DNA of 64,000 nucleotides from NCBI RefSeq assembly GCF_020405205.1, contig NZ_CP084469.1, forward strand, positions 1,302,001 to 1,366,000, written 5' to 3'. Within the stretch, counting starts at the first letter, position 1, and every line of letters starts with the position of its first letter. The translations under genes were made by a program, and so were the position numbers. Under the pieces are notes generated by a model, which worked only from the letters and a program-made list of their open reading frames with translations, ran no database searches and was not told the DNA's origin. Positions 25,653 to 36,334 of this stretch are shown piece by piece. The DNA is from Natrinema salinisoli (lineage in GTDB: Archaea > Halobacteriota > Halobacteria > Halobacteriales > Natrialbaceae).

Positions 25653-26711
25653 TCATTGGTGTTCCTCCGCTGTCGCGGTCTCGTTGTTTCGCCGCTGTCG
25701 GTCCTCCGCTGTCGCGGTCTCGTTGTTTCGCCGCTGTCGGTCCTCCGCTGTCGCGGTCTCGTTGTTTCGCCGCTGTCGGTCCTCCGCTGTCGCGGTCTCG
25801 TTGTTTCGCCGCTGTCGTTCCCGCTCGAGTTCGAATCGCCGGCCGTAGATCCGCTTTCGGCTGGGCGCCGTCGAGAGTTTGACGTCCCGAGGGACCGTCG
25901 AGTAGCGGGCACCGCCGCCCAGATCGCGTCGGTCGGTCGGGATCGTCGACGCCGCCGTCGGGTTCCGTGAGTTCGTACTCGTATCCGTGGTACGCATCTT
26001 CTCGCGGTTGTACTCGTAGAGTTGCTCGAATTTCTCGTGGGTCTCGAGCAGCGCCGTCCGGAAGGCGTCGATCCCCCGCATCGCCTGTTGCTGAATGGCG
26101 ACCTGATACGCCTCGGGGTCCTTCGCGACGTCGATATCGCCCAGCGCCTGCTTCGCCGCGGAGCCTGCGTCCATCCCCGTACCGAGCACGTCGTCCTCGT
26201 CGCCCCCGAGCAGTCCGTCACCCTCCTCGTCGCCGTTCACGACGTCCGACGCCGCGTCTTCGACCATCCCGGCGCCGTCGCCGTCCTCGAGATCGTCGAG
26301 GGCGTCGTCCAGTTCGCCCTTCTCCCGCCAGATATCGCTCAGATCCGTGGCGTTCCAGGCGTTCAGCAGGTCGATCGCGTCGAACACTGCCGTGAAGTCG
26401 ACGACGTCGGAGAGGTCCTCGTCGTCGTTCGCCATCGCGTCGGGGATCTCGCCGACTTCGATCGCGTTCAGGAGTTCCTCCCCGTCGACCGCGTCGGGCA
26501 GTTCGCTGAGATCCAGCTCGTTGAGCAGCTCGACGGTCTCTTCGGCCACACGGACGAGGGTGTCGACGTCGCCGATTACCCTCTCGACGGTGTCGCCCTC
26601 GAGTTCGTCGATCCCGTCGGCGTCCTCGAGAGTCCCCTCGAGTCGCTCGAGGCTCGCTTCGGCTTCCTCGAGCAGCGCGTCGAACGTGTCCGCCGACTCG
26701 GCGTCACTCAT
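25653..26711 (-). CDS. gvpI: Gas vesicle protein in the gvpI position, unusually long, with C-terminal tandem repeats
   Basis: This 352-aa protein lies between gvpH and gvpJ, where haloarchaeal clusters carry gvpI, which is normally only about 140 aa and basic. Residues 1-195 are acidic and helical (DALLEEAEASLERLEGTL, LLNELDLSELPDAVD) and match nothing I know. Residues about 205-300 are basic (STIPTDRRDLGGGARYSTVP, SRKRIYGRRFELER) and fit GvpI better. Residues 298-349 are four copies of the 13-residue unit QRRNNETATAEDR, encoded by a perfect DNA repeat. The gvpI name rests mainly on gene order. Its ATG overlaps the gvpH stop. Confidence 0.65.
   Translation of the reverse strand: MSDAESADTFDALLEEAEASLERLEGTLEDADGIDELEGDTVERVIGDVDTLVRVAEETVELLNELDLSELPDAVDGEELLNAIEVGEIPDAMANDDEDLSDVVDFTAVFDAIDLLNAWNATDLSDIWREKGELDDALDDLEDGDGAGMVEDAASDVVNGDEEGDGLLGGDEDDVLGTGMDAGSAAKQALGDIDVAKDPEAYQVAIQQQAMRGIDAFRTALLETHEKFEQLYEYNREKMRTTDTSTNSRNPTAASTIPTDRRDLGGGARYSTVPRDVKLSTAPSRKRIYGRRFELERERQRRNNETATAEDRQRRNNETATAEDRQRRNNETATAEDRQRRNNETATAEEHQ
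25663..25818. repeat. Four tandem copies of a 39-bp unit inside the gvpI-position gene
   Basis: The units at 25663-25701, 25702-25740, 25741-25779 and 25780-25818 are identical except for the last base of the fourth. They encode a 13-residue unit rich in R, N and E. Such identity points to recent expansion, and copy number may vary between strains. Confidence 0.92.
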
Positions 26712-28155: not shown

Positions 28156-28454
28156 CGTGAATCACTCGCTGGTCGGGCATGACGTTCGTTGATGGGGCGA
28201 CTGGGTGACATGTAGCTGCGATAGCAGTGCTCCTCGCGACCGAGAGTACCGCGGTACCGAGCACTCGAGTATCGTCAGGGGTAATTCGTCCCGGCGGCGG
28301 GTTACCGTAGTGCTTGCAGTCGCAGCCCGTAGGGCTGGGCCACAACCTGTAACGCGCTACGGTCGCTGAGGCCGGTTCCGACGGCCGCAACGACCCGATC
28401 GGCTTGCAGTAGCAGTCCAAGGCGTGTTACGAACGGCCGGTCAACTCCGGGTAC
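28156..28454. promoter_or_regulatory. Divergent gvpF / gvpA control region
   Basis: The 299 bases between the two gas-vesicle units hold no gene. No clear TATA box was found before gvpA. No match to the GvpE activator site known from other haloarchaea was seen, in line with the missing gvpE. An inverted run AGTACC-GCGGTACC sits near 28248. Confidence 0.5.
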
Positions 28455-30517: not shown

Positions 30518-31483
30518 TCAGACACCTCGATAGGAACTGGTGACGTCAATTCGGTGCCAGCTACCCTCGTATAGAACGTACTCCACCTGTTCGGACGTAA
30601 CGTCATCGTTACGCTCGGACTCCGCCTCAAGCGAGGCGAGCATCGTTTCGAGTTCACTTGCCGCCTCCCGCCGTCGCTCGGCTGCTTCTTCGTCTTCTTC
30701 CTCGCTGGTATCGTCATCGCAGACCATCACGTGGCCGTCGGTCTCCTTCGCTTCATCGAGGAGCATCCGAACATCGTCGCTCGGTTCGAACGACGTCGAT
30801 CCGCGTCGTTCGAGAACGTAGTCGGCGAACGCGTCGGCGTCCTCGAAGACGGTTTCAGCGGTGTAGCGAAACCGTTTTGCAGTACCTTCTCCCGCACCGA
30901 CATGATCAAGTTCCGCGACACCGCTGTCAGCCCGGATAGCGGACGCCTCTACGCCTGCAGCGAGGACCGATTCGTCTTGGGCGTCGGAGTCGAGATAGCC
31001 GGCGACGAACGGTATCGAAAACCGCATCCCGTCGAGGTGCTCGATGGCGAGGTCGGCCGCTTCGTTGACTCGCCATCGATCGTGACGTGGTAAATCGGCG
31101 AACGATATCGCATCATCGGGCGAGATCGATTCCGTCTCGCTATCACGAGAGAGTTCGTACTTCGGGCCGGAAACCAGTCCTTTGTCGACTACCTCTTCGG
31201 CAATCTTGTAGAACCGGCCATTCCGCTCGAGGTACGTGAGCCAACTGAGCGGCCCGCGGTGGAGCGTTTCGACTACTGGGTCGTCCCCCGTGGTCGATCG
31301 GATGGCCAGGTCAGCCATCATCGTCGGCGTCCTGTCGAGATCCGATGCTGCCCGCGATGCAATCGCCGCTGCATTGACCGAGTGAAACTCGACACGAGTG
31401 CCACTACAGCCGCTACTAGTGCAGCCGGCCACTGCACAGATACCCCCTGTAGAAATACACGAAATGAAGGACCTGCGATTCAT
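30518..31483 (-). CDS. Putative lipoprotein, Tat-type signal, unknown function
   Basis: This 321-aa protein has a haloarchaeal lipoprotein signal: twin arginine in MNRRSFISC and the lipobox AVAGC around residue 21. It is therefore probably exported and lipid-anchored. The mature part is acidic with no domain I recognise; near the C-terminus is a charged coiled coil rich in E (EEEDEEAAERRREAASE). A TTTAA box 23-27 bases upstream of the ATG suggests a leaderless transcript. It is convergent with gvpO. Confidence 0.72.
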   Translation of the reverse strand: MNRRSFISCISTGGICAVAGCTSSGCSGTRVEFHSVNAAAIASRAASDLDRTPTMMADLAIRSTTGDDPVVETLHRGPLSWLTYLERNGRFYKIAEEVVDKGLVSGPKYELSRDSETESISPDDAISFADLPRHDRWRVNEAADLAIEHLDGMRFSIPFVAGYLDSDAQDESVLAAGVEASAIRADSGVAELDHVGAGEGTAKRFRYTAETVFEDADAFADYVLERRGSTSFEPSDDVRMLLDEAKETDGHVMVCDDDTSEEEDEEAAERRREAASELETMLASLEAESERNDDVTSEQVEYVLYEGSWHRIDVTSSYRGV

Positions 31484-31566
31484 ATTACTGTGGTGGAGCA
31501 TATGATTAAATGCTTTGTGTGTTGATTGGTAGAACTACCGATCGTCACGTTTGTCCGAATAGTCGT

Positions 31567-32106: not shown

Positions 32107-33468
32107 TCAATCGTCAGCGGGGGCCGGTTCCGCGTCGCCGGTCGGCGGGGAATCGCCACCGAGCGCCGCTTGAACCCGCGCCGGGAGTTCGTTGACGATC
32201 GAGCGGCCGTCCCGTTCTCGCACGACCAGGTCGTCGTCCTCGAGCCCCGCGAGGTGATGTGAGACCGTGCTGGGATCGCGCTCGAGTTCGTCCGCGAGCC
32301 GACCGTTGTGCGCCCGGCCGAGCTCCGCGAGCGCCTCGAGCACGTCGCGTTTGGCCGGTTCCGCGAGCGCGGCCTGCAGTTCGGCGTCGGCCCCGTCGAG
32401 GAAGTAGCGGCGCTTCCCGGTGTGCTTGCTCGTGGTTATCAGGTCCTCTTCCTCGAGGATGCGGACGTGATGGCGGACCGTCGAGAGGGGGACACCGGTC
32501 TCGTCGCTGAGTTGGGAGAGGTACGAGCCCGGCTCGGCCTCGATCGTCTCGTAGATCGACCGGCGGCGGTCGTGCTCGAGCGGATCGGAATCGTCGTACT
32601 GGCTGTACCTGAACAGCGGCAGGACCTTCCAGAGGTCCGTCCCGGCCCGTCGGAGTAGTCGCGTCTCGCGGAGGGCGTGCAGCCACCCGGCCGTCGCGGC
32701 GCTCCCGCCGCCGGCCGTCCCAGTCGCACCGGCACCGCTGGCCGCCGCGCCGGAGGCGGTGATCGCCCCCAGCATCCCGACCAATATCGCGTCCGTCGCC
32801 GTTTCGGTGCCGTCGGACGCTCCGTCGGCGTCGCCACCGCTGCCCGCGCTCCCGTTCGCGTCCGTGGCCGTTCCGTCGCTCGAGCTGTTCGGACTCGATT
32901 CACGCGTTCCGAGACCGGCCTCGGCCTCGAGAGTAGTATCGATCGTCGCTTCGTCGACGGTCCGCTCGAGGGCGTCATTCGTTCCGCCAGTCGTCTCGTC
33001 GACGGCTTCCCCCGTTTTGTCAACGGTGCCGTCGACGGTATCGGTCGTCGTATCGACGGTGCCGTCGACGGTATCGGTCGTCGTATCGACGGTGCCGTCG
33101 ACCCCATCGCCTGTCTCACCGGACCCGTCAGAAATGTCAGTCTCGTTCTCGAGGGTGTCGGTCGTACTATCGGTCGTGTCCTCGCCCGAATCGGTCGTCG
33201 TCCCCGAGGTATTCTCGACGGAGTCCGTCGTAGTATTGGTCGTGTCTTCGACGGTATCGGTCGTCGTCTCGGTGGTGTTCTCGAGCGTCTCCGTCGTCTC
33301 ACCGAGCGAGCCGTCGACCACATCGGTCGTCGAGAGCGCGGTCGAACTCGACAGTACCGACCCGGCACTCGAGGCACCGGCCGCGGTACCTGCACCCGCG
33401 CCGCCGACTACCATCGCGACGACGAGACACGCGAGCAGGCGCGTCGCGATCGACGATTCCGATTGCAT
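32107..33468 (-). CDS. Membrane-tethered regulator: Thr-rich outside domain, one helix, two winged helices inside
   Basis: This 453-aa protein begins with a signal-like hydrophobic segment (residues 9-31). A low-complexity part follows to about residue 230, rich in T, D and S, with repeats such as [11 protein letters not shown] and several N-x-S/T sites for N-glycosylation. A hydrophobic stretch at about 230-265 ([21 protein letters not shown]) should cross the membrane. The C-terminal 150 residues are two winged helices ([19 protein letters not shown] and [19 protein letters not shown]). The layout is an outside sensor or stalk and a cytoplasmic DNA-binding head, a one-component membrane regulator. 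Its target genes are unknown. It is divergent from mutS. Confidence 0.75.
33025..33102. repeat. 33-bp tandem repeat, 2.4 copies, in the Thr-rich segment
   Basis: Copies at 33025-33057 and 33058-33090 are identical, followed by a 12-base partial copy. They encode the 11-residue unit [11 protein letters not shown] on the minus strand, part of the outside stalk. Confidence 0.88.
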
Positions 33469-33607
33469 GCTACGCCGATTATGTGCGGTCGAGCGTAATA
33501 CGCTTTGTCCGTTTCCTGACTGTCACGTCGCTCGACGGACGGGTACCCGAGGGACCATCGCGGCCGATCCAGCAAGGTATTTCCGCATCGGGCGGCCGAA
33601 TTCGGGT

Positions 33608-36334
33608 ATGGACCCGGCGCTTGGCCCGCCCGAGCAGATGGCCGAGAAACGCGACGAGCTGACGCCGATGATGGCGCAGTACCACGACCTCTGTGCGCGC
33701 TACGACGACGCGATCGTCCTCTTTCAGGTGGGGGACTTCTACGAGACGTTCTGCGGCGCGGCCGAACGCACCGCGCGCCTGCTCGAGATCGCCCTGACCA
33801 GCCGCGAGGACTCGACCGGCGAGTATCCGATGGCCGGGATCCCGATCGACAACGCCGAATCGTACATCGAGGACCTGCTCGAGGCGGGGTATCGGGTCGC
33901 GGTGGCGGATCAGGTCGAAGAGCCCGGAGAGACCACCGGAGTCGTCGAACGCGCCGTCACGCGCGTGATAACGCCGGGGACGCTCACCGAGGACGAACTG
34001 CTCGCGAGCGACGACAACAACTTCGTGGCCGCCCTCGCTCGCGAGCGCACGGCCGGCGCGGACGACGAACTGGCCCTGGCCCTGCTCGACGTCTCGACGG
34101 GGGACTTCCTCGCGACGAGTTCGACCTCGAGGGAGGCCATCGCGGACGAGGTGAGCCGGTTTGCTCCCGCGGAGGCCGTCGTCGGGCCGGATGCGCCAGC
34201 CGACGTGCTCCCGGAAGAGTGCATGGTCACACCGTACGATGAAGGGGCGTTCGACCGCGAGCGGGCCGGAGAGAAGCTTTCGACGTACTTCCGCAACCCC
34301 GACGCGCTGCTCGCGAGCGACGCCGAAGTTCGGGCCTGCGGTGCGTTGCTCTCCTACGCGGAGTACGTCCGCGGCGGCACACACGAAGGCGAGCGCGGCG
34401 ACGCGAGGGATGCCGACGAAGACACCGCTTCGAGTTCGGGCGACGACTCCCGCCTCGAGTATCTCACCCACCTCACGCGGTACGATCCCCGCGAATACCT
34501 CCTGCTTGACGCCGTCGCTCTGCGGAGCCTCGAGCTGTTCGAACCCCGGGCCGTCCACGGCCGGGACGAGGCGACGCTCGTCGGCGTCCTCGACGAGACG
34601 GCGAGCGCCCTGGGCGGCCGGAAACTCCGCGACTGGCTCCGGCGGCCGCTGCTCGAGCCCGACCGGATCGAGGCGCGACTGGACGCCGTCGAGGAGCTCA
34701 CGAGTGCGGTCCAGACCCGTGAACGATTGCACGAGCTCCTGCGGAACGTCTACGATCTCGAGCGGCTGATCGGGCGCATTTCTCGAGAACGGGCGAACGC
34801 ACGAGATCTCCGCTCGCTCCGCGACACCCTCGCGGTGGTCCCCGACGTTCGAGACGAACTCGCCGACGCCGACTGCGACCGACTCCAGCGGCTCCACGAC
34901 GATCTGGATCCGCTGACGGACGTTCGCGAGTTGCTCGAGGACGCGATCGATTCCGATCCCCCCATCGAGATCACCGAGGGGGACATCATCGCGGAAGGGT
35001 ACGACGAGGACTTAGACGAGCTTCGCCGGACCGCGCGAGAGGGCAAGCAGTGGATCGACGATCTCGAGGAGAGCGAAGCCGAGCGCACCGGGATCGATTC
35101 GCTGAAGGTCGATTACAACTCGGTCCACGGCTACTACATCGAGGTGACGAACCCGAACCTCGACTCGGTGCCCGACGACTACCAGCGCCGCCAAACCCTG
35201 AAGAATTCGGAGCGATTCGTCACGCCGGAGCTCAAGGAACGCGAGGACGAGATCGTCGGCGCGGAAGAGCGCGCGGACGAACGCGAGTACGAACTCTTCT
35301 GCGACGTGCGTCGCGACATCGCAGCGGAGGTCGAACGCGTACAAGGCCTCGCCGAGGCGCTCGCGACCCTCGACGCCCTCGTCTCGCTGGCGACGGCCGC
35401 CGCCCAGTACGACTACTGCCGACCCGAGATACGGGAGCGCGGCGGCAGTCGGACCCTCGAGATCGAGGGCGGTCGCCACCCCGTCGTCGAGCGCACCCAG
35501 GAGTCCTTCGTCCCGAACGACGCCCGCTTCGCGAGCGATCGGCGGCTGGCGGTGATCACGGGGCCGAACATGTCGGGGAAGTCGACGTACATGCGACAGG
35601 TCGCCCAGATCGTCTTGCTGGCACAGGTCGGGAGTTTCGTTCCCGCCAGCGCCGCCCGGATTACCCCTGTCGATCGGATTTTCACCCGGGTGGGTGCCAG
35701 CGACGACATCGCGGGCGGTCGCTCGACGTTCATGGTCGAGATGGACGAACTCGCGACCATTCTGCGGGAGGCCGACGAGCACTCGCTGGTCCTGCTCGAT
35801 GAGGTGGGACGAGGCACGTCGACCGCCGACGGGATGGCCATCGCGCAGGCGATCACCGAACACCTCCACGACGAGGTCGGCGCGACGACGCTGTTCGCGA
35901 CCCACCACCACCCGCTGACCGAACTCGCGGACGACCTCGCGGCCGCGTTCACCCTGCACTTCCAGGTCGAACAGGACGACGACGAGGTCGTCTTCCACCA
36001 CGAGATCGCGCCCGGCGCGGCGACGGGATCCTACGGCGTCGAGGTCGCGACCGCGGCCGGCGTCCCCGAGTCCGTCGTCGAGCGCTCGCGGGAACTGGTC
36101 GTAGACGCAGGCGACGATGGACTCGAGTCCGTCGGAGAGAACGATCAGGGCCACGACACCGACTCGAGTCCCACTCCGACTCACGGCACGGAGACAACTG
36201 GGACTGCGACAGCAGATGGCGGCGACATTCCCGCCGACGTCGCCGCGGAACTCCGCGCGCTCGATCTCGCCCACCTCACGCCAGTCGAAGCGCTGACGGA
36301 ACTCGATCGGCTGAAGCAGCTGCTCGAGGAGTAA
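33608..36334 (+). CDS. mutS: DNA mismatch repair protein MutS
   Basis: This 908-aa protein has the full MutS1 layout. The mismatch-binding N-terminal domain has VGDFYETF near residue 46, the position of the F-x-E motif that stacks on the mismatch. It is followed by connector, lever and clamp domains. The ATPase has Walker [10 protein letters not shown] at 652-660, Walker [10 protein letters not shown] at 731-739 and an ATHHHPLT segment. A charged linker and the terminal [16 protein letters not shown] helices end it. The ATG before [13 protein letters not shown] was taken; the frame is open far upstream only as antisense of the membrane regulator. No mutL is next to it in this window. Confidence 0.95.

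Follow-up and report, generated by a model that had tools for sequence, protein, structure and literature searches.

The 64,000-nucleotide stretch of Natrinema salinisoli DNA that we analyzed (contig NZ_CP084469.1; hereafter, the window) carries a gas-vesicle cluster at about 23.4-30.4 kb and, beyond it, a minus-strand open reading frame (ORF) whose product we call REG, followed by mutS (Table 1). Within the cluster, GvpO was identified by Pfam, and the other gvp names are ones that we take from gene order and resemblance. One ORF of the cluster (25653-26711, minus strand) contains a 39-bp repeat (4.1 copies, 99%) and has a repetitive C-terminus of RQRRNNETATAED units. Between the cluster and REG lie a lipoprotein-like ORF (30518-31501, minus strand), which matched no Pfam or NCBIfam family at a meaningful E-value and had a homologue in 0 of 77 other loci (E ≤ 1e-12), and the gene for a CHY zinc-finger protein (PF05495; 31714-32064, plus strand), which stays beside gvp and mutS in many relatives, whether or not they carry REG. 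A plus-strand ORF running through REG into mutS (32759-36334) was rejected as an artefact; the alignments of relatives begin at mutS residue 1, at 33608.

Table 1. Features of REG and its upstream region, in coordinates of the window
Feature	Coordinates	Strand	Evidence
Whole ORF, REG, 453 aa, predicted membrane-tethered double winged-helix protein	32107..33468	minus	ATG start, Pfam matches, homologues
Signal-peptide-like N-terminus, residues 1-31	33376..33468	minus	KD 2.07; predicted
Thr/Asp/Glu/Ser-rich stalk, about residues 32-225	32794..33375	minus	composition, low column majority, pN/pS about 0.58
Degenerate 33/66-bp repeat array of the stalk	33145..33297		repeat scan
33-bp perfect tandem repeat, 2.4 copies	33023..33102		repeat scan
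Putative transmembrane segment, residues 226-245, Ala/Gly-rich	32734..32793	minus	KD 1.56, insertion score 3.11, conservation, low-confidence helix in model
Conserved juxtamembrane motif, residues 286-295	32584..32613	minus	ten-column majority 0.91, highest of the aligned part
Winged helix 1, residues about 297-360	32389..32580	minus	PF12840, PF24266, AlphaFold2
Winged helix 2, residues about 366-428, ArsR/SmtB-like	32185..32373	minus	PF01022, NF033788, Foldseek, VIA-align
Conserved REG promoter: TGACAGTCA, GAAACGG, then CGTATTACG about 25 bp before the ATG	33494..33525	minus	comparison of REG-mutS intergenic regions

A preliminary description had proposed that this ORF encodes a membrane-tethered one-component regulator composed of a signal-like start, a stalk, a hydrophobic segment, and two winged helices. 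That anatomy is right and recurs in relatives, and the regulator remains the best reading of it; the tether stands less firmly, as the segment is only marginally hydrophobic and its insertion is a prediction. We observed the gene, its domains, their conservation, and the dynamics of its repeats directly; the architecture is well supported, and the mechanism is what we infer from it. The signal-like start proposed earlier corresponds to a hydrophobic 19-mer (residues 11-29) with a Kyte-Doolittle (KD) mean of 2.07. In 53 of 54 family orthologue loci, the stalk is preceded by a hydrophobic stretch with a KD of at least 1.9; this count includes L047 and L053, whose starts are misplaced.

The stalk had been described as Thr-rich, with glycosylation sites and a perfect 33-bp tandem repeat, and each of these statements was borne out. 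Its 197 residues comprise 27% Thr, 11% Ser, 24% Asp plus Glu, and 2% Lys plus Arg and contain six N-X-S/T sequons, and the tandem repeat matches at 100% over 80 bp, beyond chance. The longest exact DNA repeat in the stalk measures 47 nt, against a maximum of 16 nt in 500 codon shuffles of the same stalk (0/500 reach 47), and exact repeats of at least 30 nt were present in 15 of 71 stalks. Stalk length ranges from 121 to 502 residues among the 47 orthologues with clean starts (L047 and L053 left out). Between REG and its nearest relative, L116, the stalk had an approximate pN/pS of 0.58, compared with 0.19 for the membrane and juxtamembrane part and 0.24 for the winged helices; all seven gap columns of the alignment fell within the stalk. 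Across 53 aligned orthologues, the column majority was 0.10-0.38 for residues 176-225 (gaps partly lower these figures) and climbed from 0.38 at the stalk end to 0.81 in the membrane segment (residues 226-235, followed by 0.68 for residues 236-245) and 0.91 in the juxtamembrane motif. By these sequence measures, the stalk evolves rapidly in its length, repeats, and composition, and the membrane segment does not. A fast-changing stalk between fixed neighbors would fit a spacer or a physical sensor better than a ligand pocket. None of the 25 Pfam matches listed (of 28) marks a recognizable sensor domain within the stalk. In haloarchaeal S-layer glycoproteins, according to the accessible text of PMC2913515, Thr-rich O-glycosylated spacers precede the membrane domain.

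The proposed single membrane helix is conserved and scores as more membrane-like than the controls, but its best KD window reaches only 1.56, and higher stretches occur in MutS (1.58) and GvpA (1.79). Its score on approximate values of a biological insertion scale was 3.11, compared with 4.02-14.18 for 12 neighboring control proteins, lower being more membrane-like; the lowest control score (4.02) comes from a protein that begins with a signal-like stretch. Across the 71 family loci with a stalk, the best KD had a median of 1.63 and was at least 1.6 in 40, at least 1.3 in 64, and below 1.3 in seven; in two of these seven (L106 and L041), the segment sits further upstream, with KD values of 1.52 and 1.48. 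Outside the family, the KD was at least 1.3 in 12 of 18 loci and below 1.3 in the other six (L180, L183, L184, L185, L188, and L191; lowest 0.82, in L183). The 30 residues before the segment carry a median of one Lys or Arg and six Asp or Glu over the 71 loci, and the stretch after it (median 45 residues) a median of four Lys or Arg, a charge pattern that would suit an N-out/C-in topology. Conservation backs the membrane segment more than hydropathy does, and we consider its predicted insertion likely.

The two winged helices claimed for the C-terminal part were confirmed: HTH_20 and HTH_5 exceed their whole-protein cut-offs with two matched stretches each, and AlphaFold2 agrees. The profile scores, with the cut-offs in parentheses, were 46.2 (31) bits for PF24266, 54.1 (22) for HTH_5, and 76.3 (55) for HTH_metalloreg NF033788. 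In the AlphaFold2 model (residues 215-453, six sequences), the mean pLDDT was 70.6, with 79-93 per ten-residue block in the winged helices and below 50 in the membrane part. VIA-align, the rows of which test mainly model residues 122-230, matched winged helix 2 to ArsR/SmtB, HlyU, and MarR structures, with a CzrA mutant as the best (4ggg_B; Z 13.5, 5.0 Å, 90 residues). Foldseek also lists ArsR/SmtB and HlyU structures, at lower ranks than its top rows (ScpB and others), which extend across both winged helices with an rmsd above 10 Å and were given no weight. A PDB sequence search with REG matched 5duk and 2jsc. Winged helix 2 thus has the winged-helix fold of the ArsR/SmtB family, as judged by NF033788 and CzrA 4ggg_B. 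The sole Cys of the ORF lies in the signal-like start, and because the winged helices carry none, REG has no cysteine metal site; the metal-ligand cysteines of cysteine-type ArsR/SmtB metal sensors are absent from both winged helices.

REG has relatives well beyond the genus. Its nearest named relative by sequence is Natrinema salsiterrestre (94% identity). In its own family, 66 of 125 genomes match at E ≤ 1e-20, representing 17 of 29 genera, and in its own order the membrane and winged-helix part is matched in 130 of 392 genomes at E ≤ 1e-15, representing 47 of 95 genera; paralogues and short soluble forms count toward both figures, and many of the weaker matches across the order fall in short frames. 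The family search gave 78 loci for examination, the window included: 54 orthologues and 24 other paralogues, some of them soluble. A further, nonrandom sample of 20 loci was drawn from the strongest out-of-family matches, and 18 of them retain the signal-like start, stalk, and winged helices (the exceptions were L175 and L193). Judged from sequence, the REG-type layout occurs in many related archaea. Three soluble paralogues (L066, L067, and L108) are 178-186 aa long, share 53-59% identity with the REG double winged helix, and have neither signal nor stalk; given these stalk-less proteins and the short frames, the tether is not required for the work of every member. The genome of N. salinisoli itself encodes a paralogue at 3.56 Mb (L040:6347-7807) with the same layout of signal, stalk, hydrophobic segment, and double winged helix, in which the stalk consists of about 20 or more (DKPGKP) repeats. 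A frameshift origin of this Lys/Pro-rich stalk was rejected, because its reading frame is uninterrupted and the (DKPGKP)n repeat genuine. Three of the four L040 relatives looked at (L079, L110, and L073) have DDP-rich stalk repeats.

Upstream of REG, 32 of 38 REG-mutS intergenic regions share a site that ends in GTAT(T/A)AC and lies about 25 bp ahead of the start. Of the 38 REG-bearing regions, 11 contain the exact sequence TGACNGTCA; none of 24 regions upstream of mutS in loci without REG does. A matrix scan of the 38 loci found no second REG-promoter-like site, with 32 sites scoring at least 23.8 and the best elsewhere 14.6. This conserved motif may serve autoregulation or be no more than a basal promoter. 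In the genome of the window, TGACNGTCANGAAACGG occurs at 25 places with at most two mismatches, against five for the reversed control. We fetched the surroundings of three of these 25 regions and compared one, before a MaoC-like gene, in relatives; of 108 matching genomes, 30 loci were used, four of them with starts that could not be placed. The motif was present in 2 of 15 REG-bearing genomes (that of the window and its sister) and in 0 of 11 genomes without REG, and the gene was rejected as a conserved REG target. The search for a regulon by way of the REG promoter motif thus ended with a lead that failed in relatives, and no signal, partner, or target of REG was found, the MaoC-like gene being the sole candidate target examined.

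The neighborhood of REG is shared by many of its orthologues. Within the fetched 12 kb of the 54 orthologue loci, window included, gvp genes occur in 44, mutS in 42, and the gene for the CHY zinc-finger protein in 35; none of the 24 paralogue loci has gvp or mutS. Three loci of family f6 (L176, L184, and L188) have the same gvp-CHY-REG order and orientation, with no mutS match within 12 kb. In the tree, the linked regulators of f6 and of family f1 are separated by well-supported branches carrying unlinked ones, and the link between gvp and REG is therefore either old or arisen twice. Upstream of gvpA, we observed a motif, (C/T)TTGCANNNGCA, that occurs in the window at 28313-28324 and 28403-28414 and in 73 of 81 loci; with one exception, the nearest copy lies 48-60 bp ahead of the start. 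The 1.0 Mb of fetched loci contains CTTGCANNNGCA 132 times, and 116 of these occurrences are within 160 bp upstream of gvpA. The GvpD P-loop domain PF07088 was not among 25 of 28 REG Pfam matches listed and had no match in the genome of the window at E ≤ 0.001. The same model matched 60 of 125 family genomes at E ≤ 0.001, 34 of them over the cut-off (best E 1.4e-7), and 3 of 14 control genomes below the cut-off; because it looks general, these counts give no conclusion.

Transmembrane transcription regulators (TTRs) are one-component proteins that combine a DNA-binding domain with one or more predicted membrane segments, and the accessible text of the survey by Demey et al. (2023, PMC10269533) counts 1,384 of them in 404 archaeal species, the single-pass form being the commonest (about 56%). 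REG resembles them in its predicted DNA-binding domain (PF12840, PF01022, and PF24266 above cut-off); its candidate membrane region is marginal by KD yet conserved and below the 12 controls in insertion score. It differs from the TTRs as described in that text in its signal-like start, its predicted N-out/C-in arrangement with a C-terminal DNA-binding part, its two winged helices, and a repetitive low-complexity stalk in place of a folded sensor. The accessible main text of the survey contains none of the terms halo, signal peptide, disordered, and arsR. ArnR and ArnR1 of Sulfolobus acidocaldarius were, to their authors' knowledge in 2019, the first archaeal membrane-bound transcription factors analyzed biochemically, and the accessible part of that paper (PMC6396743) gives ArnR an N-terminal HTH, a putative HAMP, a sensor domain, and two C-terminal membrane helices. 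As is predicted for REG, they are archaeal membrane-bound one-component regulators with an HTH domain. The order is reversed in REG, which has one internal segment and neither HAMP nor sensor among 25 of 28 Pfam matches listed, and its HTH units are C-terminal with no hydrophobic window after them. REG shares domains with the HVO_0163 N-terminal HTH family (PF24266) and with ArsR/SmtB repressors, the CzrA/SmtB folds matching winged helix 2; HVO_0163 itself is an ArsR-type protein reported to increase under hypochlorite stress (PMC10294847, accessible part). Compared with both groups, REG adds a predicted membrane segment, stalk, and export signal. The yeast cell-wall sensors Wsc1 and Mid2, which sense envelope stress, have a signal peptide, a Ser/Thr-rich glycosylated stalk, and one membrane helix. 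They use cytoplasmic signaling proteins and carry no DNA-binding domain, and the likeness is an analogy only. In the open-licence PMC papers searched, we recognized no description of a stalked REG family, found no papers on DUF7343 and related families, and obtained nothing relevant on haloarchaeal membrane-anchored Thr-rich HTH proteins. REG is real and conserved, and probably a variant of the membrane-bound one-component regulators.

We favor the reading that REG is a single-pass transmembrane transcription regulator with a flexible, glycosylatable stalk spacer that reports envelope state, and we give it a probability of about 0.5. Topology, sensing, and targets would be as follows. The N-terminus would be exported and probably cleaved, and the low-complexity, acidic, Thr-rich stalk, lying outside the cell, would serve as a flexible spacer open to glycosylation that extends into the zone beneath the S-layer. 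A single Ala/Gly-rich helix is predicted to span the membrane, and the C-terminal double winged helix would bind promoters, perhaps that of REG itself, from the inner membrane face. Because it turns over so fast, the stalk probably registers a physical condition of the envelope (spacing, crowding, glycan load, or proteolysis) rather than binding a ligand in a pocket. The signal would pass via the conserved membrane helix and the FRYSRYDDSDP motif, so that REG, we infer, relays surface state to DNA.

The same anatomy admits other readings. Regulated proteolysis, in which a surface event exposes a helix-destabilized segment to an intramembrane protease (e.g., a rhomboid) and frees the double winged helix for DNA, is in our view possible, if rather unlikely. 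The membrane segment is conserved and rich in Gly, Ala, Ser, and Thr; the accessible part of PMC3494066 reports that helix-destabilizing residues guide rhomboid substrate choice, and that of PMC11985538 that Haloferax volcanii has two rhomboids with natural substrates yet to be identified. Small residues are, however, also found in plain membrane anchors and in helix-packing motifs, and it is composition alone that suggests the lability of the segment. We think it very unlikely that the weak segment fails to cross the membrane, leaving the export-like start as the only anchor and REG no surface sensor: its KD lies within the range of soluble proteins here and six of the 18 out-of-family loci are weaker still, but the segment is conserved in sequence, its insertion score is below those of the 12 controls, and DNA-binding domains outside the cell would be senseless. 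ArsR/SmtB-like domains are usually regulators. This speaks against a structural role in which REG is no sensor and ties chromosome regions to the membrane; its presence in only 66 of 125 family genomes likewise points more to an accessory regulator. A pair of DNA-binding units following a membrane segment, and a stalk with no recognizable sensor domain among the listed Pfam matches, would suit such an anchor, which we nevertheless hold to be highly doubtful.

The gene neighborhood invites a further guess, that REG is the missing gas-vesicle regulator of haloarchaea without gvpD and gvpE. The vac regions of these haloarchaea are reported without gvpDE and their control is called unknown in the accessible text of PMC4390858, and gvp genes share the 12-kb locus in most orthologues, in the f6 loci even with the same order and orientation. 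The comparisons with relatives nevertheless make this reading improbable. At 40 family gvp loci without REG at the spot, mutS and the CHY gene were each kept in 25. REG orthologues were found in 51 of 111 genomes with GvpO and were kept in 3 of 14 without it (Fisher p 0.094, kinship ignored). Among the 20 sampled out-of-family REG genomes, 10 lacked GvpO, and of the 17 outside f6, seven have GvpO far from REG. The gvpA-promoter motif was equally common with REG (35/41 loci) and without (38/40), and the matrix scan gave no second REG-promoter-like site across the 38 REG loci. The adjacency of gvp and REG is thus mostly inherited gene order, since relatives without REG keep the order, half of the sampled out-of-family REG genomes lack gvpO, and the gvpA motif is independent of REG.

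To our knowledge, the means by which archaea monitor an envelope of a single membrane plus S-layer are poorly understood, and laboratory work has covered few of their membrane-bound transcription factors. Beyond the reading of REG as a stalked transmembrane regulator, one may speculate on a widespread class of archaeal envelope mechanosensors, unlikely as we judge it in full: a mucin-like stalk of fast-changing repeats would report the state beneath the S-layer, an unstable conserved helix would be cut when the stalk is pulled or unmasked, the double winged helix would go from the surface to DNA, and paralogues, such as the one with the (DKPGKP)n stalk, would respond to different physical cues. 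The REG locus is also a clean case in which a tempting guess from a gas-vesicle neighborhood was weakened by comparative controls. The REG family is simple and modular, occurs in many Halobacteriales, and has separable parts (stalk, helix, and winged helices), which would make the control of transcription by a disordered stalk directly testable in tractable haloarchaea.
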